Below, piece by piece: positions 20,829 through 62,422 of a DNA stretch of 64,000 bases (positions are counted from its first letter, which is position 1; every line of letters starts with the position of its first letter). The DNA comes from Desulfarculaceae bacterium (lineage in GTDB: Bacteria; Desulfobacterota; Desulfarculia; Desulfarculales; Desulfarculaceae). Location of the stretch: the NCBI GenBank assembly GCA_021737145.1, contig JAIPEN010000014.1, positions 37,782 through 101,781 on the forward strand, written 5' to 3'. The translations under genes were made by a program, and so were the position numbers. The notes beneath the pieces are model-generated. The model saw nothing but the letters and a program-made list of their open reading frames with translations, ran no database searches and had not been told where the DNA came from.

Positions 20829-20893
20829 CTCAGCGGGAGAGTGCCATCCTCACACGGTGGAAGTCATGGGTTCAAATCCCATCCGGCCTACCA
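20819..20893 (+). tRNA. tRNA-Val (CAC)
   Basis: AGGCCGG/CCGGCCT acceptor stem, CCATC-CTCACAC-GGTGG anticodon arm, GGGTTCAAATCCC T arm, encoded CCA. Confidence 0.93.
20839..20893 (+). repeat. attL core (3' part of tRNA-Val)
   Basis: GAGTGCCATCCTCACACGGTGGAAGTCATGGGTTCAAATCCCATCCGGCCTACCA identical to 62368..62422. Confidence 0.95.
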
Positions 20894-24766: not shown

Positions 24767-26221
24767 CTATATTCCAGCCGGGAGAGTGCGGCACACTAGC
24801 CTGATGATGTAAGTGGACCAGGTGCCATCCGTTGAGTAGTGGCGAATCTGGTCGCTGGCATTTGTCGTTACCGCCCATGGTACCGAGGTAGGCCCAGCAG
24901 CGGCTGGCGTGGTGAGCTGGACTGCGGTAGCGCCGCCCCCGGTCTGGATGAACATGGTTTGGGCAGCAGCGGCGTGTTGAGCGGAGGCAAACCCCCCACA
25001 CAGCACCGGCGCGCCCCATGCGTGGACACCGGCCGAAATGACCTCTGGGCTCGTTGCTGGGGTGGCATCGTTGAGGATTATTATGGCTGAATGTGAATAG
25101 ATACAGCCGTTCGGCCCGGTCCAGGTGCTGGCCGGGTCGACATTTCCCGAGCCGTCAGTCCTGAATTGCTGGAAAATCGCCGCCCCACCGGCATCATAAA
25201 AACCGCGCTTGCTCGCGCTGTATGTGGGGGGGGTGCCGGTGACGATAAACTCGGAGGCGCTCAGAGCGTTACCACTGGAGGGCTGGGAGAAGCCAACAAA
25301 GTAGTCGTTGTTCGCGCTCAACGCCCCTCCCGCGTCAACCTCGAAAGCAGTCTCACCGCTGAGAGCACAAAGCAGGCCGTCAATCTCAATCTCACCCGCG
25401 CCTAGATAAATTTCATTCCCATCTTTATAGCGCGGGACAAGTCCCTCCCGGTGGCCAAGCGCGGGGGGAGCCTTGATATGGTTTCTGGCCGCCTCGGCGC
25501 TGACGGCCCCCAAAAAACTTTGAATGAAGCTCTCAATCGCGTTGGCGGTAAGCTCGTACCCGTCCCCCGCCGCCTTGACGATCAGCAGCTTGTCGGCGTC
25601 CGCAACGGTGATGCTGGGGAGGTTGACCCCCGCCGCCGCCGCTTCAGCCGCTGCCCGGGCCGCCTCGGCAGCGATTTCGGCCGCCGCCGCCGTGGCTGCC
25701 GCCGCCACCGCGCTGGTAATTCCGCTGGGGTTGCTGGTCAGGCCGTCCCCGTCATCGTTGAAGCCGATGGGCGCTCCCGCCACCGGATCGGGCAGAGTCA
25801 GGTCCAGGCCGCCCTGGTCCAAGCCCTCCCGCATGCGGGGCACCCGGGCCAAGAGCTCGCCAATTTGCTGGTGCATCATGATGGAACGGTCCACCATCTG
25901 CTCCAACACTTCGCGGTTGTCCGGCCCCCAGTTGCGCAGGTCGGTCAACTGGGTTAAAGGCAACACCCGGTTGATGGTCACCGCTTCGTTGGCCGCCGGG
26001 ATGGACCCCGCCTCGAACACCACGTTGCCCCCGCCTTCGTCGCCCACCCCGGTCACGGTGTAGTCGACGTTCAGGACCTGGAGCGTGTCCACCAAATCGG
26101 GGCCGGTCACCAACACCCGCAGGTCTTCCTCCGCGAAAATCTTGCAGCCATAGGCAAAGGTGGCCTGGGAGCCGCTGCCCGCATATTGATAAGGCCCGCC
26201 ATACACGCCAACCGTCATCAC
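24767..26221 (-). CDS. Tail fibre with T7 gp17-like N-terminal domain
   Basis: YAGSGSQATFAYGCKIFAEEDLRVLVTG...DYTVTGVGDEGGGNVVF...NRVLPLTQLTDLRNWGPDNREVLEQMVDRSIMM. Confidence 0.85.
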   Translation of the reverse strand: MMTVGVYGGPYQYAGSGSQATFAYGCKIFAEEDLRVLVTGPDLVDTLQVLNVDYTVTGVGDEGGGNVVFEAGSIPAANEAVTINRVLPLTQLTDLRNWGPDNREVLEQMVDRSIMMHQQIGELLARVPRMREGLDQGGLDLTLPDPVAGAPIGFNDDGDGLTSNPSGITSAVAAAATAAAAEIAAEAARAAAEAAAAGVNLPSITVADADKLLIVKAAGDGYELTANAIESFIQSFLGAVSAEAARNHIKAPPALGHREGLVPRYKDGNEIYLGAGEIEIDGLLCALSGETAFEVDAGGALSANNDYFVGFSQPSSGNALSASEFIVTGTPPTYSASKRGFYDAGGAAIFQQFRTDGSGNVDPASTWTGPNGCIYSHSAIIILNDATPATSPEVISAGVHAWGAPVLCGGFASAQHAAAAQTMFIQTGGGATAVQLTTPAAAGPTSVPWAVTTNASDQIRHYSTDGTWSTYIIRLVCRTLPAGI

Positions 26222-29200
26222 TTATCCTCCCTGCCTGGGCCCAACACCGGGGCCAAGGGGCTATCGGTCTTTCCCTGGGCCAGGGCGGCCAAGCCCCGGG
26301 CCGTGGTGATCATCTGCCGCGCGGGCAGGCCCAGGGCGTATCCCATGGCCAGCACGGCCTTCTTGGCCAGTAGCTCCGGGGCCACGTCCTCGCCGCCGGC
26401 CAACCGGCCGCCCAGCTTAATCAAGTCGCTGAAGGTCTCCAGGCCGTCCTGCACCGGGCTCATGGCATATCCCCAGGGGCCGGTTGCGGCGGTCCACATG
26501 TCCCGGATCACCGGCACCCCGCCCAACAGGTAGCCCACCGTCTTGACTCCCAGGTCCTTGTAGTCGTCGGCTTCGTCGGGTATGTCCTGCTCGTCGATCA
26601 GGTAGGCCATGAACACCGGCAGCACCATCAGCAGCCAGGCCGCCCTGGCCCCTTCCCAGGCCCCCAGCTCGCCCTCGGCCAGCTTGTAGCCCTTTTCGAT
26701 GGCCCGGTTGGTGAAGGAGCTAAAGAAGCTCTGGAACATGGTCAGGATGCGCCAGAGGCCCGGCTTGCGGTAGATGGCCGCCAGGTCCTTGGGGCCCGCC
26801 GCCGGCTGGGTGGTGCGCATCACGCCATCGGCAAAGTCCGCCGCCTGGTGCTCGGTCATGCCCATGGCCACGGCCTTTTCGTATCCGGCCAGCCAGGTAA
26901 CCGTGGTGGTGCCCAGGTCCACCATGCGGATGGGCCACATGATCACCTGGGCCGTCTGCTGCTTGAGCTTGGCCCCGGAAGGGCTCACCCGCTGCACCAG
27001 CTCGATGGCCTCGCGGTCCCAGGTCTTGGAGCGGTTGCGCAGGGCCGGGCTGGCCTCCTGAGCAAAGGCCGTTGCCTCCGCCGGGTTGCTCATCCAGCGC
27101 GCCAGGCCCTTGCGCACCCACTTGAGGCCCACCTCGTCAATGGTCTGGGTGAGGCTGAGCCCCTGCTTCAGGCTCACCGTGGCCTTGAGGCCCAGGGAAA
27201 CCAGGGTGGCATTGCGGCGCAGGGTGTCCAGCCAGTTCTCCATCTCCAGCAGGCGGTGATACTCCGGCCGGGCGATGTGTTGCAGCCAGGGGCGCAGCTC
27301 CTTGTAGCTCTCCTGGCCCAGGGCCTCGCTGAATTGCTCCCGGAATACCGGATGGGTGATGACTTTTTGTACGTCGCGCACCGCCGGCCGGTGGCTGATA
27401 TCGTGCAGCACCGACCGCAAGTGCTGGTTGATAGTGCCCAGCTTGAGCATGGGGGCCTGGCGGGAGCCGGTGCGCTCGTGGGTGGCCCCGGCCCGAGTGC
27501 TGGTGGCCCCGTACACCGCCGCGAAGTAGTCCTTGGCCGCCTGGGCCTCCTGTTGGGCCTCGGTCACGGGGCTGAACTTGGGGTCGCTGATAATGGGGAA
27601 GTAGCCGCCTTCGATCTCGCCGAATCTGGTCTGCACCTTGATGGGCTCAACCTTGACCAGGTGCACCCCGGTCATGCGGTGGTGGGTTTCGTCCAGGAGC
27701 GGGAAAAACTCATCCAGCAGGGCCCAGATGTTTTGGATCATTTCCCAATGGCGTTCATCCAGGTGGTTCAGCACCGCCTGGTGGGCCTCGGGATCGGCCA
27801 GCCAGGCGTGGTGCTCGCTGGTGCTCTGCTTCAGGGCCCGCAGGTTGCCGCTGTTGCCGGAGTTGAGGCCGATCATGACCACCTCTTCCATGTTCAGCAG
27901 CACGGGCACCCCGTCTATCTTGATGTTGCGGGTGCGCCAGCCCTTACGCTCGCCCAGGGGGATGGCCTCGAAAATCTCCTTTAGCCGGCCAAAGGCGTGC
28001 TCGCCCAGCTCGAACTCGTAGTCCTCGGCCTTTTTGATGGGGTGCATGATCAGGCGCTGGAACGGGCCGTCATGTTTCCAGTGGTCCGCCCGGCGGAGCA
28101 AGAACTCGGTCTTGATCATCTCGGCCACGGCCCGGCGGAAGCGGCCCTTAAAGCGGCCCTTTCCGTCTTGCAGCTCTTCCCAGCCCTTACGGATCGGGTG
28201 TTTTTTGTATTTGCCCAGGTGCTTGGTCATCTGCAACACCGCCCCCTCCAGGGTCATGGCGTTGCCTTCCCACACCAGCTTGCCGCGTTGGCGGCCCAGG
28301 TGGGCAAGCTGCTTGACGATGTTCTTCAGGTCGACCCAATCCTGGGCGCTCTCCAGGCTGCCCGGCACTTCGGGCATGGATTCGATAAGGTCCTCGGCAA
28401 ATTCCTGGTTGGTCTTTAGCCCCTCCAGGAACTCGCCCAGGGGCGGGGTGTCGCTCCGGGCCTGAAAGGAAATGGGCAAGTTGCGGAAGCGGCCCACCAG
28501 TTGGCGAATCTGTTGCAGGAAGTCCCAGTCAACCCCGCTGCCCTTTTGGGGGTCAAAGGGCTTGAGCCTGGCGGCGCGGTCCAGGGCCTCCTTGGCCTTG
28601 GCTATCTCCTGGCGAGCCCGTGCCCGCTCGCGGATTTTGTCGGCCGCCGCCCGTTGGCGTGCCTTCTCCTGGGCGGCCTGGGCGTTGCGCCCGGCCCGGT
28701 AGTGCTCCACCGCCTTGGTGGCCGCGTCCTTCATGGCCGCCACCAGGTCGTTGTAATCCCGCCGGTCCAGCTCGCTGGTGCTCACCCCGGCGGCCCGCTC
28801 GTTTATGCCGCCCTGTAGCGCCGCCGCCGCGTCCGCGGCCTTGCCGCTGCCCGGGGCCAGCATGTCCTGCTCGGCCTTCAAAAGCTCCAAAAACTCCGGC
28901 CCCACCCCCACCTCCAGGGCGGTCATCTCGGCGTCGAACTCGGCGGTCTTCTTGGCCAGCCAAGCCTCTTGCAGCTCTCCGATGGTGGGCGTGGCCAGGA
29001 GCTGGCCCAGGAGCTCGCGGGGGTCCAGGTTTCGCCCGGCGGCGTATTCCTCCAGGCTCACCGAGCCCTCGTGCTTGATCAGCCGGGGCCGCTTCTTCAT
29101 CAGGGCCTTGTACTCGGCCTCGCCCAGCAGGTCTTTCACTTCCCCGGAGACAAAGCCGCCCAGCTCCACCACCTCGGCCATGATCTCCTGGCCGGGGTGG

Positions 29201-32200
29201 GCCCGGGCGTCTTCCAGGGACTGTTGCCGCCAGGCGGGCATCAGGCGCTTTAGCGCCCCCAGGCGGCGCTCGGCGATGCGGGCCGCGCTGTCTTCGGCCG
29301 CCAGGCTGCCCTGCCGCTTGTAGAACAGCCAGGCCTCGGGGCTCACCCCCGGTGGGGCCTCGGCCAGCATGGGCGCGATTTCGGCCTCGGCCTGGGCCGC
29401 CTCGATCTCGCGCTCGGTGGCGATGAGCCGGTCGAACACCCCCGCCATCTCCGGGCCCACCTTGTCCTGATCCTTGAGCGCCCCATACATCTGGATGAAC
29501 CAGCTCTTCATGCGGGCGAAAATGCCGGCCGTGGCCTTGCTGGGCGGGGTGCCGGTCTGCAAGTAATCGATTCCCGCCTCGGCGAACTTTTCCTCCTGGG
29601 CGCGGGTCCAGGGCTTGCCCACCTCGGCCCCCACGAACTTGCAGGCGGCCTCCCAGTCGGCCCTCAGGCGCTCCTTGACGTGCTCATAGCCCCGCAGGGT
29701 GGACGCGGGGTCCAGGGCCAGCTCTTCCAGCTCCCGCCGCCACACATGGACGATCTCGTGGGGCGCGCTGGTCAGGTCGGCGGCCTGGAAAAACTTCACT
29801 ATGGCCTTGTCGTCATCGTCAAAACGCACGCTGGCCTTGGGAACCTGTTCACCGGAGCCCTGGCCGGGCACCTTCACGTCCTGGAACAGCTCGTCAAGGT
29901 CCTTGCTTTTTTGCTCGGCCGGGCTTAAATTGTTCTTAGAAGGCTCCCCCTGTGGCGAAGGAACGCCCTGTTCGCCACTACGTCCGGCAAAGGTTGACGT
30001 ACCGCCGGAGGGGGGTGCCTTCTCCGTTCGGGCAAAGGCCGTCAGGAGCCAGGTTTTGTTCTGACGGTTCCAGTCCAACCGGATCACCGCCCGCTCAGCC
30101 TGTTCCGTCTCGATGTAAACCCGGTTCTGGTGCCGCACCGTGACCTTGCCGGTCTCCATAATCTCCGGCAGGCGCGGCAAGATGTCCTCGCCGTGCTTGG
30201 CCAGGATGTGGGCCAGGCCGAAGCCGCGCCGGTATTCGTTGCCGGGGTCGCCGGGCCGCCCCCAAACCAGGTCTATGTCGCCCAGCTCGGGGTGGTGGAA
30301 CGCGCCGGGCACCTCGCCGGTCTGCACGGCCATGAGCTTGGCTATGGCCTGCTCGGGCTGGCCCTTGAGCTGGGCGAACACCGGGCCAAAGGGGCCTTCG
30401 GTTTGGTAAAGCGAAAACCGCCCCAACTCCCCATATTCCCAAAGAACGATCGCATCTTCGCGGTTTTCCGGCGGGGTTTTCGCCCTGAGTTGTTTAGTGT
30501 AATTTCGCCGCCTGGCCGTATCTCGCGCCTCCACTTCACCCGCAAGGCGCTGATAGATTCCAAATGCTTTTTCGTCGGCGTCTTTCTCTAACTCAAGAAC
30601 CTCATTGGAGACTTTTTCACGGGCGGCCATTATTTCCGGATATTCGGGAGTGCCTACGGCCTCGCTTAGCAATTTGTTAAGCTGTTCAACTTCTTCCATC
30701 AGGCCCTTAATATCTGCCTGCATTTGCCTGTAAATTCCAACGGGGTGCCCGCCACGGGCGAAACCTTCACGGCGCTGTATCCAGTGCTGTATTTCATGGA
30801 TTAAAATCTCAAAGGCGGTGCTGTAATCCTTCGCAACAACCCTGATACCCCTGGCAGAAAGCGATCCGTTTTGACCGCCAGCAGCATAAACAGGATGAAC
30901 TCTCATGGCGGTTGGAACATCGGCGATGCTTGGATATGCAGCAAACAAGTCTGGATGGTTTATCACCATTCCCAAATTGATTTGGTCTTCATAATCCCAG
31001 TCGTCTACCCTTTCCACATGCTCTTTAAATGACGCCTTGCTATCGTCGATCTCAAAGCGCCAAATGTTGTCCATGCCCTTGAACCAACCGGTCGCCGCGC
31101 GAATTTCCTCCTTATCCGCTCCCTCAGCTTCCATGCTGATTGCCTTCTCAAGCTGGTCGTGTGCGGCGGTGGCGGCTTCTTCACCGGCATACTGGAAAAG
31201 CTCGGCCTCCGGCCCCCCAAACCAGTTGGCAAAGCTCTCTTCCGGGGTCAGCTTGATGATGGTCTGCTGGCCCCCGGCGGCCAGGGCCGCGTCCTGGGCA
31301 TAGCCCGCGAAGGCGTCGCGGACTTGGTTGGGCCCGTTGTCTTGCAGGAACATGGCCAGGACGGCCGCCTGCTCGCCCATCTCCGCCTCTTCGGCTCCGG
31401 GCAGGGCCTGCTGGCGGGCCAGCTCGCGCACGCTCTTGATGCCCGTGGCCTGCATCTTCACGGTGATGCCCAGGGCCTCGCGCAAGGCGGGCATGATGTC
31501 CCACTGGCCGCCCACGGCCATGATCTTGACCAGGCTGGGCAAGCTCCGGCTGATGTTGGCCAGCACTGAGCGGGGCAGGTTCTCGATCAGCTCGGCGTCT
31601 TGCAGGATGGCCCCCAAAACGGTGCGCTCCACCAGGCGCTTGCCGTCTTCATTGAGCTGGCCGAAGCGCTCGGACCAATACTTGTTGGCCTCTTCCTGGC
31701 TGATCACTCCGTCGTTCACCAGGCGCTGCAAGATTCTCTTGGCCACGTCGGCATTTGCCAGCAGTTCGCGCAGGGTGGCCTCGTGCTGGGCCAGCAGGGA
31801 GCCGATGCGCTCCAGGGTGGCCTGGGAGACGTTGTGCCCCATGGAGGCGGTGGCCGTGGTTTCGCCCATGGCCTGGGTGGGGGCGCGGTTGAAAAGGCTG
31901 GCCAGGCGGTGCAGCTCTTGGACGCTCTCGGCGGGCTGGGTCATACGGGCTAGCACCGGCTCGCGCATGGCCCGCACCTGCTCGGGGTCCAGGCCGAAGA
32001 TGGGGGCGCGGGCCTCCAGGTCCTGGCGGTAGGCGTCACCGTTGCCCTCTTCGCCATAGGCCCGGCTTATGCTCATGGCCCGGCTGTTGCCGCCCAGCAC
32101 CACCCCGCCCGGGGTGATGATCGGCGGGCCGTTCACCGCGTCGGGGTTGTCTGTGATCACATAGCGGGTGTTCAGGTTCTGGGCGTGGCGCACCACCTTG

Positions 32201-34218
32201 AGCTGTTCGTCCTGCTCGGCGTCATAGCGCCGCTCTTGCACGCCCTCGGGGTAGCCCTCGCTGGGCTTAAAGCTCACCGGATCGTGGCTGGTGATCAGAT
32301 CCCCTGCTTCCACCAACACGTAGACCCCGGGCAGGCTGCTGTCCCCGCCATGAATGCGCGTGGCGCTGCCCACGGACACCCGGCCCTGGTCATCACCGCC
32401 GCCCCCGCCGCCCGGCACCTCGAACTCGAAGCGGTCGAAGTAGTCCGCCGGGCGCACCCTGCGGCCCATGGCATTCCAGTCCGTGGCCCACCGCCGGGCC
32501 CTGGCGCCCATGAGCCGCGCGGTCAGCTCCGCCTCTTGCTCCGGCCGGCCCAGGTTCATCAGCTCGGCTTTGAGCTTGAACATCTCTTCTTCGGGCAAGT
32601 CCGGGTCGCGCCGCTCCAGGAGCCTGATCTCCGAGGGGGTTAGCTCCGTCCTAGCCGGGGGCGCAAAGGTCAGCTTGTCTTTCAGGGCCTCGCCCACCGG
32701 TCCGGACATAAGGCGGCCCATCTTCTTGGTGGGGAAGTTCACATTGGTGCCCAGGGCCAGGGCCTCTTGATACTCCTGGTCGCCGATCTCCAGGGCGGCC
32801 AGGGCCTCGGAGACCTCCATGGGGTCCAACTCGCCCATCTGATAGAGCTCATCAATGGCTCCAGCGGGCACATAGACCCGCTCCGGGCCCTGGGCCTTGT
32901 CGCGCACCGTCTCGATGAACTCTTCCATGGCCTCGGGCTCGCGTTGGCCCAGCTTGCCCTCCTGGTGGGCCTTCTGCACCGCCTCGGCCAGGCGGGGGGC
33001 ATTGGGAGCCACCCGGCGGTAAGACTGTATCTGCATCACATGGCCGGGCACTCCCAACAACCCCACCCCCAGGGCGGTGGAGCGGGCCGTTTCCAGGAAA
33101 CTGGGCACCTGGGCGGCCAGGCCCTCCAGGGCTCCCTTGAGATCGGCCTTGCCCTCCATGAGCCGCCCGGTCTGGGCGGCCACCTCGCGGGTCAGGTCCT
33201 GTAGAACTTCCTCGGTCACCTCCTGACCCACATAGGTGCCGTAGCTCTTGGTTGCCCGTCCCAGGGCCTCCACAAAGCTTTTCTTGCCCAGGGCTGCCGC
33301 CACCCCCTTGCGCAGTCCCTGGCTAAGCAGCTCGCGCCCACCGGGCACCGTTTTGACCAGTTGGCCGATCTGGGCCTGTTCCAGCAGGGCATTAACAAAG
33401 CCCACCGCGTTGCCCAGGGCCGCCGCCTTACTCGGCTCCAAGCCGTGCTTTTCCACAAACTCGGCCGCCGCGTGTCCGGCTTCTACCTTGGCGATGTAGT
33501 CGGCTGATCCGCCAGCCATTCCGGCGGTGAACCCGACCATGGCAGCGGCTGGAACCGTAACAATTTCTTCTGGCAAGGCCACCTGGGGTCCGAGTTGGCC
33601 GGCGATAGCCGCCGCGCCGCCGCCAACCATGGCCCCTTCCAGGCCCTGATCCACGGCCTCCCAAAGAAACAGCCCGCGCTGAGTCAAGAAGTTGGCCGCG
33701 CTTCCAATGGCCTCTTCCCACCAGTTGCGAGGAACCAGGGTGCCCTGGCTTTGCTCCTTGAGGTGCGCTATTTCAGAATCGACTTGGGGTGTGTGTTGAC
33801 CTTGCACATATTTTTGATGGTACAGCTCGCCCAGGCGGTTGCCCGCCGAGGCCCGCACCACGTTTTCCATGGCCAGCCGCCACACCCGCTCAACCGCCCC
33901 CAGGCTCTCCACATCGTCCCGGGCCAGGGCGGCATTTCGGGGGTTGGCCAGAAACTGGGCCAGGCCGGGGTTGGTGCGCTTTAGCTGGCTCAGGTCGGGG
34001 ATGGGATAGGCGGCCTGGGCCTTCAGGTCCGGGCTGTCCAGCACGGCCTGGGGGTGCACCCCCGTGCGCCTGCCGTAGGCCACGGCGCGGGCTGCGTCAT
34101 CTGGGTGCACCGTTCCGGCGGCCTTCCAGGCGTCGCTAAGCTCGTCGCCCTTATCCGGTAGAACGCTGGGGTCAAACTGAATCTCATCATCGTGAAGCTT
34201 ATTAAGGTCAAGAGGCAT
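26218..34218 (-). CDS. Giant polyvalent/internal virion protein (2666 aa): DdrB-like, two zincin-like HExxH domains, PBECR-like nuclease, LPD38-like C-terminus
   Basis: NPDAVNGPPIITPGGVVLGGNSRAMS; HEIQHWIQRREGFARGG (30784-30798); HEIVHVWRREL (29746-29760); AHILAKHGEDILPRLPEIMETGKV...WLLTAF. Confidence 0.85.
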   Translation of the reverse strand: MPLDLNKLHDDEIQFDPSVLPDKGDELSDAWKAAGTVHPDDAARAVAYGRRTGVHPQAVLDSPDLKAQAAYPIPDLSQLKRTNPGLAQFLANPRNAALARDDVESLGAVERVWRLAMENVVRASAGNRLGELYHQKYVQGQHTPQVDSEIAHLKEQSQGTLVPRNWWEEAIGSAANFLTQRGLFLWEAVDQGLEGAMVGGGAAAIAGQLGPQVALPEEIVTVPAAAMVGFTAGMAGGSADYIAKVEAGHAAAEFVEKHGLEPSKAAALGNAVGFVNALLEQAQIGQLVKTVPGGRELLSQGLRKGVAAALGKKSFVEALGRATKSYGTYVGQEVTEEVLQDLTREVAAQTGRLMEGKADLKGALEGLAAQVPSFLETARSTALGVGLLGVPGHVMQIQSYRRVAPNAPRLAEAVQKAHQEGKLGQREPEAMEEFIETVRDKAQGPERVYVPAGAIDELYQMGELDPMEVSEALAALEIGDQEYQEALALGTNVNFPTKKMGRLMSGPVGEALKDKLTFAPPARTELTPSEIRLLERRDPDLPEEEMFKLKAELMNLGRPEQEAELTARLMGARARRWATDWNAMGRRVRPADYFDRFEFEVPGGGGGGDDQGRVSVGSATRIHGGDSSLPGVYVLVEAGDLITSHDPVSFKPSEGYPEGVQERRYDAEQDEQLKVVRHAQNLNTRYVITDNPDAVNGPPIITPGGVVLGGNSRAMSISRAYGEEGNGDAYRQDLEARAPIFGLDPEQVRAMREPVLARMTQPAESVQELHRLASLFNRAPTQAMGETTATASMGHNVSQATLERIGSLLAQHEATLRELLANADVAKRILQRLVNDGVISQEEANKYWSERFGQLNEDGKRLVERTVLGAILQDAELIENLPRSVLANISRSLPSLVKIMAVGGQWDIMPALREALGITVKMQATGIKSVRELARQQALPGAEEAEMGEQAAVLAMFLQDNGPNQVRDAFAGYAQDAALAAGGQQTIIKLTPEESFANWFGGPEAELFQYAGEEAATAAHDQLEKAISMEAEGADKEEIRAATGWFKGMDNIWRFEIDDSKASFKEHVERVDDWDYEDQINLGMVINHPDLFAAYPSIADVPTAMRVHPVYAAGGQNGSLSARGIRVVAKDYSTAFEILIHEIQHWIQRREGFARGGHPVGIYRQMQADIKGLMEEVEQLNKLLSEAVGTPEYPEIMAAREKVSNEVLELEKDADEKAFGIYQRLAGEVEARDTARRRNYTKQLRAKTPPENREDAIVLWEYGELGRFSLYQTEGPFGPVFAQLKGQPEQAIAKLMAVQTGEVPGAFHHPELGDIDLVWGRPGDPGNEYRRGFGLAHILAKHGEDILPRLPEIMETGKVTVRHQNRVYIETEQAERAVIRLDWNRQNKTWLLTAFARTEKAPPSGGTSTFAGRSGEQGVPSPQGEPSKNNLSPAEQKSKDLDELFQDVKVPGQGSGEQVPKASVRFDDDDKAIVKFFQAADLTSAPHEIVHVWRRELEELALDPASTLRGYEHVKERLRADWEAACKFVGAEVGKPWTRAQEEKFAEAGIDYLQTGTPPSKATAGIFARMKSWFIQMYGALKDQDKVGPEMAGVFDRLIATEREIEAAQAEAEIAPMLAEAPPGVSPEAWLFYKRQGSLAAEDSAARIAERRLGALKRLMPAWRQQSLEDARAHPGQEIMAEVVELGGFVSGEVKDLLGEAEYKALMKKRPRLIKHEGSVSLEEYAAGRNLDPRELLGQLLATPTIGELQEAWLAKKTAEFDAEMTALEVGVGPEFLELLKAEQDMLAPGSGKAADAAAALQGGINERAAGVSTSELDRRDYNDLVAAMKDAATKAVEHYRAGRNAQAAQEKARQRAAADKIRERARARQEIAKAKEALDRAARLKPFDPQKGSGVDWDFLQQIRQLVGRFRNLPISFQARSDTPPLGEFLEGLKTNQEFAEDLIESMPEVPGSLESAQDWVDLKNIVKQLAHLGRQRGKLVWEGNAMTLEGAVLQMTKHLGKYKKHPIRKGWEELQDGKGRFKGRFRRAVAEMIKTEFLLRRADHWKHDGPFQRLIMHPIKKAEDYEFELGEHAFGRLKEIFEAIPLGERKGWRTRNIKIDGVPVLLNMEEVVMIGLNSGNSGNLRALKQSTSEHHAWLADPEAHQAVLNHLDERHWEMIQNIWALLDEFFPLLDETHHRMTGVHLVKVEPIKVQTRFGEIEGGYFPIISDPKFSPVTEAQQEAQAAKDYFAAVYGATSTRAGATHERTGSRQAPMLKLGTINQHLRSVLHDISHRPAVRDVQKVITHPVFREQFSEALGQESYKELRPWLQHIARPEYHRLLEMENWLDTLRRNATLVSLGLKATVSLKQGLSLTQTIDEVGLKWVRKGLARWMSNPAEATAFAQEASPALRNRSKTWDREAIELVQRVSPSGAKLKQQTAQVIMWPIRMVDLGTTTVTWLAGYEKAVAMGMTEHQAADFADGVMRTTQPAAGPKDLAAIYRKPGLWRILTMFQSFFSSFTNRAIEKGYKLAEGELGAWEGARAAWLLMVLPVFMAYLIDEQDIPDEADDYKDLGVKTVGYLLGGVPVIRDMWTAATGPWGYAMSPVQDGLETFSDLIKLGGRLAGGEDVAPELLAKKAVLAMGYALGLPARQMITTARGLAALAQGKTDSPLAPVLGPGREDK

Positions 34219-36186
34219 CTAGCGCGCCGCCCCTCTCTGCCGTTGGTCTGCCGGTGCAAACTCCGGGCGGTACCTTTTGATCATGGCGTCGATGTTCCGG
34301 GGTGTGGTCTTGTAGCCGTATTTCCCGAGTGCGGTCTCGGCCCAGCGGATCACCTCCGGCGGGTAGAGCTCGTTCAGCTCCTGGATGCTCTCAGCGTTCA
34401 GCACTGGCACCTGGTCGATGGTCACCCCCTGCTGGGCGGCCACGGTCCAGCGCCGCCGCTGGTGCACCGGCAGGTCGTTCCAGCTTTGGCCGTCCTTCTC
34501 GGCCTGCTTTTGGGCATTCACCAGCAGCTCGGCCGGGGTGTCGGGCAGGCGGGGGTCGTAGACCAGGCGGCCCTCGGCGTCGCGCAGCTCGGCCGGGGCC
34601 TGGCCGCTGGTCTCCACTTGGCCGGCCACGTATTCATATATCGGCCCCTCGGTGTCCCAGATGGTGCCGGACTCGGTGACCATCTCCTGGCGCAGGGCCT
34701 TGGCCACCTGCATCACTTTCATGTCCGTGGGGCCTATCTTCTCGGTGTCCATTTGGGCCCGGAGGGCCAGGGAGAAGCGTTGCACCTTTGCCTTGTCCTT
34801 CTCCTGGCCGGAGAACTGGGCCACCGCGTTCTTGAAGTAATCGAACTTGCCCCCGGCCGCCTCGCCCCTGGCCTTGGCCACCTCTTTCATGGCGTCATCC
34901 AGCTTGTCGGGCATAATGCCGATGGCCGCCAATTGCTCGCGGGTGTGGTGGACGCCCAGGTAATAGAGCTGGTGGGTGAACTCGGCCCATGCCTTGTCCG
35001 TGGTGGTGGTCATGCCCTTGGCCGCAGCCTTTTGCAGACGGAACTGGGCCTCGGGCCCCACGAACTTGAAGCGCCGCGCCCTGGACGCCGCGCCGGCCAG
35101 GTCTCCCCCGGCCATGAGCTCATAGGCTTCCTTGAGCTCGCGCTTGGCCCCGGCGGTCTTTAGCTGCCTCTCTTGCTCGCGGGCCTGAGCATCGAACGCC
35201 TGGACCATGTTCCACGCCTCGCGCACCCCGTCGTTGCCGTATTTTTCGATCACCTCTGGCCGCGCCAAATACTCGCTCATGGCGTTGTAGTTCAGGCCGT
35301 GCTTGCGCCTTAGATCGGCCACCAGCAGGTCCACCTGCTTTTCCTGTTGCTCCTTTTCCTGCTGGCGTTTGAAAATCTCGGCCTGCCGGGTCACCTTGAT
35401 GCGGTCGGTGGGGTCCAGGCTGGCCAGGTAGTCCGGGTCCTTGATGGCCGCCAGAAAGCCGGAGGGATCGGCTTGGGCTGCGGTCTCGGCCAGGAGCATG
35501 TCGGCCTGGGCCTTGAAGGCCAGCTTCTTCTTGGCCCCCGCCTCGGGGCTCAAGTAATTAAGCTCCACCCCCTCATTAACCATGTCTTCGTATTTGCTGA
35601 CCGCCAGGCCCCGGGCCTTGACCGTGCCCGCCTGGTAGGACTCGCTGAGCAGGTCCTTTTCGCGGCCCACGAAAGCCGCCCCCCAAACCGAGGACGCCTG
35701 CCGTCGGGCCATGCCGCGCACCTGCACATAGCCCTGCAACACCTGGCCATCGGCATGGGACTGGTAGCTGTCGGCCCAGGGCCCCACCAGGCCATCCGAA
35801 TACCTGCTCTTCAAATCCTGGGCCTTGGCCTGGTAATCCTCTTCCCACTGGGTAAAGTCGCCTCTGTCCTGGTAGGACTCGGCCAGGGTGGTCAGCTCAC
35901 CCCGCAAGGCCACCAGGTTGGCATTGCGCCGGGCCACCTGGTCGGTTTGGACAAGGCGCTGACCCTGGTTGTGAAGCTGCTCGCCCAAGCCCACCAGCAC
36001 GGCCATGGAGTTGGCCAAGGTATCGCTGGCCTGCACTGCGGCGTTCGAGCCCGCGCTGAGCGCCCCCGGGTCCATGCGCACTGCCGGGGCCTGGCCCATG
36101 CCGGGGTTTAGCTGGATGGTGCCGGATCGGCGCGGCAGGGACTGCCTGGATTGATAAGTCGGAATGGGCATGGTGGCTCCCCTCAC
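34219..36186 (-). CDS. Internal virion protein, gp15-position
   Basis: Position between giant virion protein and gp14-like; 655 aa helical. Confidence 0.6.
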   Translation of the reverse strand: MRGATMPIPTYQSRQSLPRRSGTIQLNPGMGQAPAVRMDPGALSAGSNAAVQASDTLANSMAVLVGLGEQLHNQGQRLVQTDQVARRNANLVALRGELTTLAESYQDRGDFTQWEEDYQAKAQDLKSRYSDGLVGPWADSYQSHADGQVLQGYVQVRGMARRQASSVWGAAFVGREKDLLSESYQAGTVKARGLAVSKYEDMVNEGVELNYLSPEAGAKKKLAFKAQADMLLAETAAQADPSGFLAAIKDPDYLASLDPTDRIKVTRQAEIFKRQQEKEQQEKQVDLLVADLRRKHGLNYNAMSEYLARPEVIEKYGNDGVREAWNMVQAFDAQAREQERQLKTAGAKRELKEAYELMAGGDLAGAASRARRFKFVGPEAQFRLQKAAAKGMTTTTDKAWAEFTHQLYYLGVHHTREQLAAIGIMPDKLDDAMKEVAKARGEAAGGKFDYFKNAVAQFSGQEKDKAKVQRFSLALRAQMDTEKIGPTDMKVMQVAKALRQEMVTESGTIWDTEGPIYEYVAGQVETSGQAPAELRDAEGRLVYDPRLPDTPAELLVNAQKQAEKDGQSWNDLPVHQRRRWTVAAQQGVTIDQVPVLNAESIQELNELYPPEVIRWAETALGKYGYKTTPRNIDAMIKRYRPEFAPADQRQRGAAR

Positions 36187-36938
36187 ACCGGGTATTGAGT
36201 GCCAAAGGCCCCGGGGCGACTAGATACCTTGAAACCGGAGCCGGTCTTGGGCACGCTGGCGGTGGAGGGACCGGAGGTGGGCACGCGGTAATACTGCATG
36301 GCGATGTTGCCCGCTCCGGACAGCAGGCTAGCCACGCTGCCCCAGCGGGCCGCGTCCGCCTGGTACCCAGCCGAAGCGGCCCCATATTTACCCGCCAGGA
36401 TGATCTGTTTGGCCTCCAGGCGGCCCAGCGCCGCCTGGCTCAGGGACTGGGCGGCCATGAGGCTGCTAGACATCTCGCTGGCCTTGCCGGTCAGCCGGAT
36501 GCGCGAGGCCTCCAGCGCCCCCTCTTCCATAAGGGCCGCCAGGTCTTCCTCGAACAGCTCGGCCCCCTCGTCCAAAATCTCGCCCAGGCCCGGGTCCGGG
36601 GCGAAGCCCGCCGACGCATAGGTGGCCACTTGGGTTTTTTGCAGGCGGCCGAAGCCGCGCCGGAAGCGCCGCACCTCGCGCAGGGTGGCCCGTTCCACGG
36701 CCAGGGCGTCGCCCTCGGACGCCGCGCGGTTTATCTTGCCGATGCGGGCATAGCTGCCCGCCTCCCAGTCCGAAAGGTCGGCGTTCATGTTGGTGATGGC
36801 GGATTGAATGGCCGCGTTCCGGCGGATCAGCTCGGCCTGGGATTCGTAGACGCCCGCAGCCGAGTACTGCGCCCCCGCCGAAAGCAGGGTGCCCCCAACC
36901 ATTCCCACTGTTCCTAGAATTAATGCAGTCGAGCACAT
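36183..36938 (-). CDS. Internal virion protein, gp14-like
   Basis: Ala/Gly-rich hydrophobic N-terminus, helical body, synteny. Confidence 0.65.
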   Translation of the reverse strand: MCSTALILGTVGMVGGTLLSAGAQYSAAGVYESQAELIRRNAAIQSAITNMNADLSDWEAGSYARIGKINRAASEGDALAVERATLREVRRFRRGFGRLQKTQVATYASAGFAPDPGLGEILDEGAELFEEDLAALMEEGALEASRIRLTGKASEMSSSLMAAQSLSQAALGRLEAKQIILAGKYGAASAGYQADAARWGSVASLLSGAGNIAMQYYRVPTSGPSTASVPKTGSGFKVSSRPGAFGTQYPV

Positions 36939-36945
36939 GGCCGCC

Positions 36946-38688
36946 TCACATATCGTTAGTGTTCATCTGGGGAATGATGCTGGTGATATTCAGGGGCAAG
37001 GGTTCCTCTTGGCCCACCTCGACCTGGCCATCGCGCACATAGTTGCCCGCCAGCACGCAGGGCTTGGTCTTGCCGGTGAACAGAGCGGCCGGCTGGTCCT
37101 CTTGTTGGTCCATCACGTCGGGCAGTATGGGCTGCATATCCTGGCCCACCTGGCCCACGTATCCGCCCACGCTTTTCTCCAGGCCCAGGATCACGGAGTG
37201 CAACCGCTTTTTCCCGCCCTGGGCGGTGCCATCGGCCGCGCCCGCCTCGATGGGCAGGGTTTGCAAGCGGCTGGTGTAGGGCAGCCCCACGTGCACCTTG
37301 CTGGCCGGGGTAGCCAGGCTTATCTGGCCGCTGGACACCACCTGGCTGGGCTGCACCGAACCGTCGGCCAGGATAGCCACGGTCATGCCTTCCAGGTGCT
37401 CCAGTCCGGTGATGGTGTCGGTCTCGGCCCCGTCATGGGTGATCCCCGAGTCCACATAAAAACAGTCCCTCACGTCGTCGAACTCATAGGATGCCAGGCG
37501 CTCGATGTAGCGCTTGGTTTGGCCGTTGATCTCCCGCTTGACCAAGGCCCATACTTCGTCCCGGTCCGGTCCGGGCTTTACCGCGATGCTTTCCACCTCC
37601 CCCTGGGTGGGGTGCTGGTGCCAGGAAACCACCCCTTCGGGGCGGTAATAGGTCATGCCCACCGCCCCGCCGTTGACCAGGTGGGACCACACCACGCTGT
37701 AGGGTTCCTCGGCATAGTCGAAATCCACAATGCCGCTGGCGGTGATGTGGTCGGCCCGCAGGGAGAGGTTGGTGCCCACCAGCTTTTCATAAGCCGAGTC
37801 ATAGACCAGCTCATAGAGCCGCCTGCCGGTGGGGCTTGCGAACAGCACGTTGTCGCCCGCCTTGCGGCCTTGCGCGGACTTGGAGCCCCGGGAGCCCTGG
37901 GGGTCCACCCGGAAGTTGGTGGGGGTTATGGGGTTCAGGGAGCTGGCCACCCCGCCGGCAATCTCGCCGCCCACGCAGCCGAAGATGAGCCGGTCGTCGG
38001 GCTCCAGCCATAGAACCTTGTTGGCCCGTCGGGCGCTGATGGTGCGAATAAAGGCGTCGCTGTCCCCGGTGCCGGTGGTCATGTCGGTATAGGCGTAGGT
38101 TTTGCTTATGTACAGGCGCAGGGGCTGGTCGGGGCATCCGGCCCAGAAGCTGCGGTCCTCATAGATGGCCACCGCGCCGGGGTAGTTGCCCGCTCCCCAG
38201 TCGCCCGGCGTGGCGGTGAAGGATACCGAGGCCACCGCCCAGTTGGTGTGGCCGCTACGGGCCAACTGAGCCGGAGCCACGTCGTTGTGCGCCAAATACG
38301 CAACGTCCATGTGCTGGAAGTGTTTGAGGGCCGCGAGCTGGGCCTCGCTGTGCGCCCCGGTGATCTCGTAGGGGTTGCCCGGGCTGCCCGGGTCCTCTAT
38401 CTGGCCGTCCTCGTAGAAAAAGCGCACATACCCGTCGCCCACCTCCAGGATATAGGCTTGGTCCTCGCTGAAAACAAAGGGGATCAGCCGTGCCTTTTTG
38501 TCGTGGTGCTTGGCCTCGGCTATGAATTCCCAGCCAGGGCGGCGGGTGACTCCGCCTTGGGGCAAAACGATGAAATTTTGCACCAGGGCGCAACCACTGG
38601 CCCAGAAGTCAAGGTCAGCCCGGCCCCAGAGTTTGGGGGAAATCTCGCCAGCGGAGAAGTGCGCGACTAAAGGGGTTACGCGGGCCAT
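36946..38688 (-). CDS. Tail tubular protein B / nozzle (gp12-like)
   Basis: FSAGEISPKLWGRADLDFWASGCALVQNFIVLPQGGVTRRPGWEFIAEAK. Confidence 0.85.
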   Translation of the reverse strand: MARVTPLVAHFSAGEISPKLWGRADLDFWASGCALVQNFIVLPQGGVTRRPGWEFIAEAKHHDKKARLIPFVFSEDQAYILEVGDGYVRFFYEDGQIEDPGSPGNPYEITGAHSEAQLAALKHFQHMDVAYLAHNDVAPAQLARSGHTNWAVASVSFTATPGDWGAGNYPGAVAIYEDRSFWAGCPDQPLRLYISKTYAYTDMTTGTGDSDAFIRTISARRANKVLWLEPDDRLIFGCVGGEIAGGVASSLNPITPTNFRVDPQGSRGSKSAQGRKAGDNVLFASPTGRRLYELVYDSAYEKLVGTNLSLRADHITASGIVDFDYAEEPYSVVWSHLVNGGAVGMTYYRPEGVVSWHQHPTQGEVESIAVKPGPDRDEVWALVKREINGQTKRYIERLASYEFDDVRDCFYVDSGITHDGAETDTITGLEHLEGMTVAILADGSVQPSQVVSSGQISLATPASKVHVGLPYTSRLQTLPIEAGAADGTAQGGKKRLHSVILGLEKSVGGYVGQVGQDMQPILPDVMDQQEDQPAALFTGKTKPCVLAGNYVRDGQVEVGQEEPLPLNITSIIPQMNTNDM

Positions 38689-38689
38689 G

Positions 38690-39268
38690 CTAATTACGCC
38701 TCGTAATCCAGGGGTCCTCGGGAAGCGCCACCGGGGTAGGCTCCGCGTCCTTGAGGATGGCCTCTTCACGGGTGAGCAGGTACGCCTGCCCCATGAGCTC
38801 TTCCGACTTGCGGTTGCCGGTGATCTTGTAGGCGATGAGGTAACCCAGTTTCATGGCCAGGGCCTCGCGGGCCTTGGGGCTCATGGTCATGGGGTCATCG
38901 ATCAATCCGGTGTATTCCAGATGGACCCCATCGCTCACATTACAAAGCAGCTTGCGGCCCTCGATGGAGTAGGCAGTTTCAACGCCCCCCACGTCATTCA
39001 CCCTTACTTCCCGGATGAAGCGGGGGTCGGTGGGCAGGGTGTACTGATAGCTCCAACCGAAGGCGGGGGTGCTGGTGAGCCGGGCCAGGGACTGGCGGCA
39101 TCTGGCCCAAGACCAGTGATGATCCTCCAGTATGGCCTCCAGGGCCTGGTCGAAGTGCTCGGCGCATAGCTTGGCCTCGATGGAACCGGTCTGGTTCCAG
39201 GCCGATATGGGATCAGCCCCGAGCTTGTTCAGGGCCATGTTGCAGATGGAGACCTTGCTGGCGGCCAT
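38690..39268 (-). CDS. Tail tubular protein A / adaptor (gp11-like)
   Basis: ICNMALNKLGADPISAWNQTGSIEAKLCAEHFDQALEAILEDHHWSWA. Confidence 0.8.
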   Translation of the reverse strand: MAASKVSICNMALNKLGADPISAWNQTGSIEAKLCAEHFDQALEAILEDHHWSWARCRQSLARLTSTPAFGWSYQYTLPTDPRFIREVRVNDVGGVETAYSIEGRKLLCNVSDGVHLEYTGLIDDPMTMSPKAREALAMKLGYLIAYKITGNRKSEELMGQAYLLTREEAILKDAEPTPVALPEDPWITRRN

Positions 39269-39326
39269 TGGCTTGCCTCTATCCCGGGGGGCCGGAGCCC
39301 CCCGGGGGTTAATCACGGGTTACAGC

Positions 39327-47576: not shown

Positions 47577-47813
47577 TCATTTTTTAAAGGGATGGATGCC
47601 CTCGCGCTCGCAATACTCTTGCACTGCCCATCGTGGATACTTGTAGCTGCCATTGACCGGCTTGGGTGTGCGCTCGATAAGGCCAGCCTCGGCCAGCTTG
47701 CGCAGGGTGTTGCCGTCTTCCTCGCCAATCAGCGACTTGACCATCCACGGCTTGAGCATCATCGGGAGTGCACCCCAACTCGTTACCTCAGCGCCCTTGT
47801 AGATCATTCCCAA
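47577..47813 (-). CDS. Small DNA-binding (winged/helix-turn-helix-like) protein
   Basis: 78 aa ORF overlapping DnaC-like gene; TLRKLAEAGLIERT...YPRWAVQEYCE. Confidence 0.5.
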   Translation of the reverse strand: MGMIYKGAEVTSWGALPMMLKPWMVKSLIGEEDGNTLRKLAEAGLIERTPKPVNGSYKYPRWAVQEYCEREGIHPFKK

Positions 47814-48619
47814 TCGCCCTCCGCCATCAGTGCACTAAAAGCCAGGCCCTCCACCCGCACCGCCTTGCAAATGCGCTGCAACCGGTCCCAGACCCGGTGA
47901 TGCTTCTTGTCGTGCAGGCTGGCGCTCATCTCCTTTTCGCCCGCGTTGGTGCCCACCAGCAGGGGCAGGCCCCGCCGCATGCGTTCGTCCACCACCTCGG
48001 TGATGAACCGCGCCACCCTTAGCCCCACCTTGCCCACGCCCAAATCGTCCAGCACCACCAGGTGCCGCCGCTCCACCGCCTCCATCATGTTGCGGGCCCG
48101 GCTGCCCTTGGCCATGCTCTTGGCGCTCTCCCGGGCCAGGGTGGGCACATGCACGTACACCCCGCTTTCCTCCTCGGCCCGCATGTTTTCCGCCAGGGTG
48201 CAGCACAACAGCACCGTCTTGCCCACCCCCGTGGGCCCGTGCAAGAAAAGCCCCTGCTTTAGGCCCAGCCAATCCCGGCACTCCTGCCAGGGCCGTTCCC
48301 ACAAGGCGAAGTCCTCGCCCTGCTTGATGGCCCGGGCCTCCCGGTAGGCCCGCTCAAAACTCCACTGCCCCAGGCCCGCCGGAAGGTTGGCCTCCATGGT
48401 GGCCGCCATTGCCTCCGCATGGCGCACCTGTGCCTGCTTCTCCCGCTGTTCGGCCTCGGAGCATTCCGGGTGTATCCCCTGGGGCAGCCATTTTTTTATC
48501 TGTTGCAGCCCCTTGATGGGCACCGGCCACACCGGCTTGTGGCACCGCCTGCAAATTTCCGGGGGCGGTGGCTCCGGCCACCCCGGCGGGGCCTTTTGGG
48601 CCATGGCGTCACGCTTCAT
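47804..48619 (-). CDS. DnaC/IstB-like replication ATPase (helicase loader)
   Basis: LFLHGPTGVGKTVLLCCTLAENM, VVLDDLGVGK, CRRCHKPV zinc motif. Confidence 0.88.
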   Translation of the reverse strand: MKRDAMAQKAPPGWPEPPPPEICRRCHKPVWPVPIKGLQQIKKWLPQGIHPECSEAEQREKQAQVRHAEAMAATMEANLPAGLGQWSFERAYREARAIKQGEDFALWERPWQECRDWLGLKQGLFLHGPTGVGKTVLLCCTLAENMRAEEESGVYVHVPTLARESAKSMAKGSRARNMMEAVERRHLVVLDDLGVGKVGLRVARFITEVVDERMRRGLPLLVGTNAGEKEMSASLHDKKHHRVWDRLQRICKAVRVEGLAFSALMAEGDWE

Positions 48620-51660: not shown

Positions 51661-52431
51661 TCAATCACCGCACACCTCCCTCACCAGCTCGGCCAAAATA
51701 TCCCCGTGGCAGGGCTCATGCTCCCGGCAGTAGCAGCCCAAGCGCTTGCCCTTGAGCTCGTGCAGCCGGTCCCCGAACTTGTCCGCTGCGTAGCCCTTGA
51801 AGCGCTTCACGGCCAGCTTCACCGCTCCCTGCTTGCTCGGGGCTCCAGCCACCGCGACATTCTGGTCTAAGTCCCAAACCGCCCACCACCTGCGAGCGAC
51901 CTTATAAACCTTGTACGGATTCCCCCACCGCCCCGGCCGCGTGATCATCACGTCCGGGCACTCCACCCGCACGTCCACCCGCCTGGTGGTGCCGTCATGC
52001 GGGCGGAACAGCTCGTCCTTGTTCGGGCTCGGGGCCCAGAAAAAGGGCCGCGCCTGACGGCCGGCCAAGTAGGTCACCGGCTGGGCAAAGGGCTTGGGGT
52101 CGGCCAGCTCCCAGTGCCAGGCCCCCTTGGCCGCCCACCGGCTCCGGCTGTCTTGCCGACACCCGGTTATCTTCACCGTGCCCAGGATCGCCCGCCGGGG
52201 GGCAATAATATTTGCGAGGACTCCGGCCTCCAGCGGGCCCACCATTTTTCTTAGTTGGAGATAACTACATGCCGGGTCCCACTTGGCCCCCTGGAACACC
52301 AGCACCTCCAGGGGCAGCTTGTAGCTCTCTGGCAGGGCCTCGCCCCGGTTCTCCACGTCCTTGGCCAGGCCACCCTCCAGGAACATCAGAGAGCCCCAGG
52401 GTGCCCACACCGGCAGGCAATGCATGCTCAT
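51661..52431 (-). CDS. ASCH - DUF4326 fusion protein
   Basis: PWGSLMFLEGGLAKDVENRG...GAWHWELADPKPF; GRWGNPYKV...LKGKRLGCYCREHEPCHGDILAEL. Confidence 0.75.
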   Translation of the reverse strand: MSMHCLPVWAPWGSLMFLEGGLAKDVENRGEALPESYKLPLEVLVFQGAKWDPACSYLQLRKMVGPLEAGVLANIIAPRRAILGTVKITGCRQDSRSRWAAKGAWHWELADPKPFAQPVTYLAGRQARPFFWAPSPNKDELFRPHDGTTRRVDVRVECPDVMITRPGRWGNPYKVYKVARRWWAVWDLDQNVAVAGAPSKQGAVKLAVKRFKGYAADKFGDRLHELKGKRLGCYCREHEPCHGDILAELVREVCGD

Positions 52432-53441
52432 GCCGCTTGCCCGACAAAGACATTCGGGTAAAGCTCGCGGGCCATGTCGCGCAGTGGCAGCATCACCTCG
52501 CGCATCTGCGGGTGAGCGGCCTTGTCGCACCTGAGCTTGAAGATGTGCTGCCATTCAGCCAGGGAGGCCGTGACGATAATCTCGGTCTTGGTTGAGTTGG
52601 GGAGCACGGAGCGGGCTTGCTGAGGGGACCAGCCCATCTTGAGGAGGTCGATATAGGCAAGTTCTGCGCCCCGGCAGGAGGCCAGCCATTGCCAGTCGGG
52701 GGTTATATCAGAGGTAGCTTCGGCGCGGTTCAACATTTCTAGGCGGCCGAACTCTCCCTCTTCGACGTCCACCCAAGGCGGGATCACGAAGGCCACCCCG
52801 CCCCCGTAGTTGCAATAGCGGGTGCTCTCCTGGGCGTAGCTGGCCGGGCGGTGGCGCACGATCTCATGAGTAACGCCCCTGTCGCAGACGATCTTTGCAG
52901 TAAATGCCGCCAGCTCGGGCCATGTCTGGATGTCTATTGCCTCCAAGGCATGAACCCGAGCTCCCACATATTTGATAGCATCGCGCCCACACCACTCGTT
53001 AAAGGCGCGGCGGTTGCCAACCAGCAGCCAGTTATCAAGGTCTGAATACTGGAAGATAAAGGGATGGTCGGGGTCAACCTCTCCCAAATGAGACAGGCGC
53101 TCTTTGGGCACGCGCCACACCTCCCAGCTATGCTCAATCATGGCAAGGTGGCCCTTGCCCTCCAGCATGGCCACGAACTTGTGGGCGCTGGTGGGGCACT
53201 TGCCGCCATCGCATACCCGACACGACAGCCTGTCAGTTCGATCTTCCTCCGCGCTATATAATTCGGTAGGCACCTCCCCGGAGCCATTGCACTCCGGACA
53301 CTTTGCCCAAGCCTTGTCCTCCGACTTGTAGCAGGTCCGCCCCGCCGCTTCTATCAGCCTCAGCGGTCGACCGAATGTATATGGCAATTCTTCGTGCCCA
53401 AAGGCCGCCAGTATCTCCACGCTCGGCTTTACTAAAATCAT
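52428..53441 (-). CDS. thyX: Flavin-dependent thymidylate synthase ThyX with Cys-rich insert
   Basis: RHRPASYAQESTRY (RHRX7S motif); insert CPECNGSGEV...CRVCDGGKC. Confidence 0.88.
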   Translation of the reverse strand: MILVKPSVEILAAFGHEELPYTFGRPLRLIEAAGRTCYKSEDKAWAKCPECNGSGEVPTELYSAEEDRTDRLSCRVCDGGKCPTSAHKFVAMLEGKGHLAMIEHSWEVWRVPKERLSHLGEVDPDHPFIFQYSDLDNWLLVGNRRAFNEWCGRDAIKYVGARVHALEAIDIQTWPELAAFTAKIVCDRGVTHEIVRHRPASYAQESTRYCNYGGGVAFVIPPWVDVEEGEFGRLEMLNRAEATSDITPDWQWLASCRGAELAYIDLLKMGWSPQQARSVLPNSTKTEIIVTASLAEWQHIFKLRCDKAAHPQMREVMLPLRDMARELYPNVFVGQAA

Positions 53442-62367: not shown

Positions 62368-62422
62368 GAGTGCCATCCTCACACGGTGGAAGTCATGGGT
62401 TCAAATCCCATCCGGCCTACCA
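62368..62422 (+). repeat. attR core
   Basis: Identical 55-nt copy of tRNA-Val 3' part. Confidence 0.95.

Follow-up and report, generated by a model that had tools for sequence, protein, structure and literature searches.

A prophage of a Desulfarculaceae bacterium encodes a 2666-aa protein in which, with a probability of roughly three in four, we see the ejection protein that a temperate short-tailed phage has at its gp16 position, organized into a carrier and its cargo. The gene is a single uninterrupted open reading frame (ORF) with an ATG start on the minus strand at 26218-34218 of the window (the whole stretch of DNA analyzed, 64,000 nucleotides), as the initial annotation had described. 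That the product is a polyvalent protein, also proposed there, was borne out by Pfam: several effector-type domains sit on one chain, namely LPD22, ddrB-ParB, LPD23, and PBECR1 (all four above the Pfam gathering scores), together with two HExxH domains. The finding is sound but lies within a described class, polyvalent phage proteins being already known. Added here are the split between carrier and cargo, the finding that the two zincins differ in status, and a cysteine signature for ejection of the whole chain.

From the N terminus, with all features on the minus strand, LPD22 (aa 35-118; 33865-34116; Pfam E-value 9.6e-16) is followed by a hydrophobic Gly/Ala-rich stretch (about aa 164-400; 33019-33729), by ddrB-ParB (aa 628-759; 31942-32337; 3.6e-16), which includes the previously noted GGNSRAMS string (32071-32094), and by LPD23 (aa 1008-1065; 31024-31197; 9e-23). 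Zincin-like domain 1 (aa about 1066-1265; 30424-31023; phrog_21376) comes next, with HEIQH at 30784-30798 starting at aa 1141, then the RNase-like PBECR1 (aa 1306-1400; 30019-30303; 6.4e-13), whose WLLTAF string (30034-30051) holds the strand residue T1393, and zincin-like domain 2 (aa 1456-1640; 29299-29853), with HEIVH at 29746-29760 starting at aa 1487. The remainder is an alpha-helical C-terminal part (aa 1640-2666; 26221-29301). Both HExxH motifs were thus found at exactly the bases first assigned to them, and the DdrB/ParB-like and PBECR- or nuclease-like segments stand. The DdrB, LPD23, and PBECR profiles, which the initial annotation had proposed as a check, were all matched above gathering scores. 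Its description had missed the LPD22 and LPD23 domains, and its LPD38-like segment has to be withdrawn, with no Pfam match to LPD38 in the giant protein at E ≤ 1 or in 18 family cores at E ≤ 0.1. An RNA polymerase domain of the N4 vRNAP type likewise gave no Pfam match in the giant protein at E ≤ 1, PADLOC returned no match, and a PDB sequence search nothing credible. Among PHROG families, phrog_9880, whose function is unknown, matched the protein best (E-value 1.9e-175), most strongly over aa 1832-2654. The names "Crystallin beta/gamma" and "lysin" carried by some relatives were dropped, as no Pfam match in the cores backs them.

The prophage spans 41.6 kb and is bounded by 55-bp att repeats, one in the 3' part of a tRNA-Val gene (20839-20893) and the other (62368-62422) adjoining the integrase (61120-62340). 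Its late minus-strand genes run in the order TerS, TerL, portal, GP7-type capsid protein, tail tubular protein A (38690-39316; phrog_394, 5.4e-40), tail tubular protein B or nozzle (36946-38769; phrog_376, 9.2e-174), a 251-aa gp14-like internal virion protein (36183-36938; phrog_418, 2.6e-5), a 655-aa protein assigned by gene order to the gp15 slot (periplasmic tunnel; 34219-36186), the giant protein, and a tail fiber protein (24767-26221; phrog_1640 tail protein, 7.9e-26). The giant ORF hence lies among the late virion genes, as polyvalent proteins do, and after the gp14 and gp15 genes, as gp16-type proteins do. Gene order matches that of BPP-1 (bbp13, 12, 11, 10), Pseudomonas phage AF (AF_012 to AF_016), and further annotated phages, which upholds the internal-virion slot proposed at the outset. 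In T7, gp14, gp15, and gp16 hold these positions and are ejected into the host (PMC8954989). Since the T7 equivalents are ejected and the same order recurs in BPP-1 and AF, the argument from position holds.

The 655-aa protein in the gp15 slot matched no Pfam family at E ≤ 0.1. Neither a lysozyme nor a transglycosylase could be recognized in it, although annotations of relatives name structural lysozymes, and none of the three ejection genes here has a recognizable peptidoglycan hydrolase. Elsewhere in the prophage, 52428-53441 resembles thymidylate synthase (phrog_85) and 47804-48619 a DnaC-like helicase loader (phrog_50). A family member also occurs in a viral sequence with Methanomicrobiales as recorded host (L039, vir555), in the same order of phrog_376, phrog_418, and then phrog_9880.

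Comparison with about 70 relatives (phage homologues and prophage relatives in bacterial genomes) shows that the carrier is conserved and its interior exchangeable, the protein of this prophage being heavily loaded. Although tblastn matched 210 phage records, none reached 80% query coverage. The region of aa ~1456-2660 (zincin 2 and the C-terminal part) is common, wholly or largely, to the 16 phage homologues compared, and in local comparison the region before aa ~1456 matches other phages in scattered pieces only: BPP-1 in LPD22 and PBECR1, AF in LPD23/zincin 1, and ctCJ8213 in a ParB segment. Carin1 gp32 is 30% identical over aa 164-601. Against bacterial genome contigs, the full-length protein as a query found no match, and a profile of the core alignment returned 80 loci, many from Proteobacteria and others from Planctomycetota, Synergistota, Bacteroidales, and further groups. 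In a single-sequence search of 54 complete relatives, zincin 2 was present in 52 and the C-terminal part in 51, compared with three for PBECR1, one for LPD23/zincin 1, and none for ddrB. Similar segments were also found, separately, in giant ORFs from other genomes of the phylum.

Pfam found LPD22 in 42 of 46 N-terminal parts (giant protein included). The domains beside it vary, with ART-PolyVal in eight, MuF_C in six, LPD3 in six, PBECR1 in four, and GNAT in four, followed by PBECR3 (three), PBECR5 (two), LPD23 (two), and ddrB-ParB, SLT, and Zeta toxin (one each), and this variable bay is placed between LPD22 and zincin 2. Because LPD22, zincin 2, and the C-terminal part are near-constant and the domains between them change, the family has a conserved carrier (N-terminal LPD22, a zincin with HExxH...E, and a helical C-terminal part of ~1030 aa) with exchangeable cargo. 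The initial annotation had listed two zincin-like segments; both are there, but by this comparison they are not equivalent, zincin 2 being assigned to the carrier and zincin 1, with LPD23, to rare cargo alongside DdrB-ParB and PBECR1. Two members, of 1554 aa (L050:6862-11526; C-terminal part kept) and 1666 aa (L129), are without HExxH, and the carrier can apparently exist without zincin 2.

Active-site residues are retained in carrier and cargo. In zincin 2, H1487, E1488, H1491, and E1543 (the third ligand) were invariant in 18/18 sequences with 19%-27% identity to the giant protein, and again in 38/38 aligned sequences. Because HExxH...E is invariant at identities of roughly 19%-34% over both alignments, the pattern argues for selection on catalysis. 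Within the cargo, G710, N711, and R713 of ddrB-ParB were invariant in nine sequences, and PBECR1 kept T1393 in 6/6 sequences and the helix residue H1337 in 5/6. These residues match the kinds named for the two domains by Iyer et al. (PMC5512222). Zincin 1 was invariant at H1141, E1142, Q1144, H1145, Q1148, G1156, and G1157 in six phage and plasmid sequences.

Two regions of the protein were modeled. The AF2 model of aa 1640-2666 is nearly all helix (pLDDT 80.7, pTM 0.75); Foldseek found no solved relative in the PDB and matched many predicted phage giant proteins with a probability of 1.00, several of them named for other cargo (ART, nuclease, acetyltransferase, MuF C-terminal domain). A three-domain model of aa 985-1645, which includes the PBECR1 helix and strands, was weaker (pLDDT 66, pTM 0.37). 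Within it, zincin 2 is modeled mostly at pLDDT 80-97 (about aa 1455 to 1584) and shows the helix, strands, HExxH helix, and Glu helix expected for a zincin; a Foldseek search of this zincin/PBECR model, poor overall by its pTM, matched no solved zincin in the PDB at E ≤ 0.001. The C-terminal membrane segment noted earlier was recovered as one clear hydrophobic helix (aa 2523-2541; 26596-26652; mean hydropathy 1.75), a candidate transmembrane segment, and most relatives checked have one hydrophobic helix about 110-153 residues from the C terminus. Toward the N terminus, hydropathy peaks at aa 219, within the Gly/Ala-rich stretch, which is a candidate membrane or tunnel segment.

Cysteine content provides a separate line of evidence. 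The giant protein has one cysteine in 2666 aa (aa 1526), and the 17 family proteins (giant protein and 16 phage homologues) have six in 40,567 aa (0.015%), compared with 0.60% in the annotated genes around these members. The 54 prophage relatives have 40 cysteines in 111,742 aa (0.036%), compared with 1.14% in other ORFs on their contigs. Those control ORFs were called mechanically, so that spurious frames may have raised their value, and 0.60% is the safer reference. Tryptophan, another rare residue, makes up 1.25% of the family, and the scarcity of cysteine is therefore not a general avoidance of rare residues. Depletion extends over the cargo: the part of the chain that precedes zincin 2 (cargo included) has 0.028% cysteine, compared with 0.041% for the core.

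The same exclusion is seen in proteins of distinct ejection systems. Zero cysteines were counted in T7 gp15 and gp16, in P22 gp7, gp20, and gp16, in N4 gp50, gp51, and gp52, and in SP6 gp37, phiKMV gp37, and P-SSP7 gp16. The nine gp15-position proteins compared also have none, that of this prophage is cysteine-free as well, and T7 gp14 has one. P1 DarB keeps its cysteines (9/2255), as do plasmid LPD23 polyvalent proteins (13/4287, 23/3133, 4/852, and 4/1017; 0.3%-0.7%); the first of these is encoded on the large P. aeruginosa plasmid p382 (L067), where its annotation covers 15 kb (about 5000 aa), of which 4287 aa were read. Some non-ejection phage proteins are cysteine-free as well (T7 gp9, N4 gp56 and gp57, and P1 Sit); absence means little for short proteins, and it is length that makes the case of the giant protein telling. 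As the sequences counted share descent and are not independent trials, the argument rests on the agreement of distinct ejection systems. For N4-like vRNAPs, a lack of cysteine has been proposed to be needed for passage through tail and periplasm (PMC3715699, PMC2784036, PMC3915230). The near absence of cysteine along the chain, as in known ejection proteins, is independent, though indirect, support for the ejection of carrier and cargo alike. Four relatives from Bacteroidales, Acidaminococcaceae, and Bartonella (L108, L109, L111, and L116) have the highest counts, 4-7 cysteines instead of 0-1, and the constraint may depend on host envelope or redox conditions.

The initial annotation had suggested that the enzymatic domains are ejected with the DNA; the cysteine data back that suggestion, with packaging and ejection themselves being steps that we infer. 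The protein would be packaged in the head and would thread through the tail, largely unfolded, after the gp14- and gp15-position proteins. LPD22, the N-terminal hydrophobic stretch, and the C-terminal hydrophobic helix might help to join the tunnel and the inner membrane, where the chain would be held by its hydrophobic parts. The interior DdrB-ParB, LPD23/zincin 1, and PBECR1 domains would then refold in the host cytoplasm, with nucleic acid or host proteins as their early targets; anti-defense, raised previously, is one option among several for what the ParB-like domain, PBECR1, and zincin 1 do. Zincin 2 would most likely act on the chain itself, e.g., in cargo release, and a self-directed action of such zincin domains has been proposed by Iyer et al. 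(PMC5512222). Against self-cleavage counts the zincin-bearing N4 vRNAP, which is packaged unprocessed (PMC5512222), and the two relatives described above without HExxH count against the reading as a whole. The papers searched contained no virion proteomics for a homologue.

Other explanations share parts of this evidence. The protein might be ejected from the gp16 position with interior domains that catalyze nothing and serve in structure or binding, a role suggested for the PBECR of Mu MuF. An inactive PBECR has indeed been described in that protein (PMC5512222), and the rapid turnover of cargo domains among relatives would fit such a role, but the retention of active-site residues (R713 of DdrB, T1393 and H1337 of PBECR1, HExxH of zincin 1, and HExxH...E of zincin 2) makes it improbable. 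We think it very improbable that the prophage uses the cargo within its own host, or to exclude superinfecting phages or plasmids, rather than on entry. Osa-like ParB DNases do attack rival elements (discussed in PMC5512222), yet the gene sits in the late virion operon and the exclusion of cysteine spans the cargo as well as the core. Least credible to us is a head-assembly or maturation factor that is processed and then discarded, with zincin 2 as a prohead protease. P1 DdrB, which is processed before packaging (PMC5512222), offers a precedent, whereas T7 and P22 have ejected proteins at the gp16 position, N4 has the unprocessed vRNAP at the corresponding one, and the cysteine pattern is that of ejected proteins. 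An ejected carrier with active cargo remains our preferred reading.

Delivery of proteins ahead of DNA by short-tailed phages has been detailed for few of them, T7 and N4 foremost. If the preferred reading is true, a family of such carriers, with cargo that can be exchanged, would open the delivery of anti-host enzymes by these phages to direct tests. The cysteine signature would be a cheap means of picking ejection candidates from sequence. Telling the conserved peptidase, which likely belongs to the machinery of delivery, from the variable peptidase, a likely effector, also changes what is to be expected of mutants. A wider generalization, which we regard as possible but doubtful, is that many giant polyvalent proteins form one family of ejectosome carriers with a near-universal C-terminal fold and zincin and an exchangeable cargo bay. 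The zincin would be a general cargo-release protease, and the oxidizing periplasm would impose a near-total cysteine exclusion by which ejected giant proteins could be told from their sequence alone.

Among known systems, BPP-1 Bbp10 (2052 aa) and AF gp16 (AF_016; 2213 aa) occupy the same gene position as the longer protein described here, and their zincin 2 and C-terminal parts are homologous to it at about 25%-33% identity. Bbp10 shares LPD22 and PBECR1, and AF gp16 shares LPD23/zincin 1, but neither matches the ddrB-ParB segment or combines these three cargo units. The polyvalent proteins of Iyer et al. (2017) have the same domain vocabulary (ddrB-ParB, PBECR1, zincin, and numbered LPDs) and late-gene context, although the main text of that study makes no mention of gp16, ejection, or cysteine (PMC5512222). 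P1 DdrB, which is packaged in the head, similarly joins ddrB-ParB to a metallopeptidase domain (PMC5512222), but it is 995 aa long, belongs to a contractile-tailed phage, and is encoded at another gene position.

T7 gp16, like the giant protein, follows gp14 and gp15 and has zero cysteines, and C-terminal membrane helices are predicted for it (PMC8954989). It differs in its length (1318 aa) and in its N-terminal transglycosylase, which Pfam did not detect in the giant protein. Alignment to T7 gp16 by hhalign, alone or with three relatives, was not significant, and neither hhalign nor hmmsearch with shuffled and reversed controls gave a significant match between N4 vRNAP and the family profile, negatives that are weak where single-sequence hhalign profiles lack depth. 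One family segment scored low against T7 gp16 660-729, yet 0/104 shuffled controls were as good, and the last family segment scored low against phiKMV gp37, yet better than all 122 controls; N4 gp53, which is not in the gp16 position, outscored every control as well on the first segment. Homology to T7 gp16 or N4 vRNAP was thus not established by these searches or by Foldseek. N4 gp50 (vRNAP) is nonetheless giant and cysteine-free and adjoins the gp51 and gp52 ejection genes. Its layout, an N-terminal membrane region, a catalytic middle, an HExxH domain, and a mostly helical C-terminal part of ~1100 residues (PMC12633501), agrees in outline with that of the giant protein, the cargo in N4 being an RNA polymerase. 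The giant protein therefore appears gp16- and vRNAP-like in position and composition.
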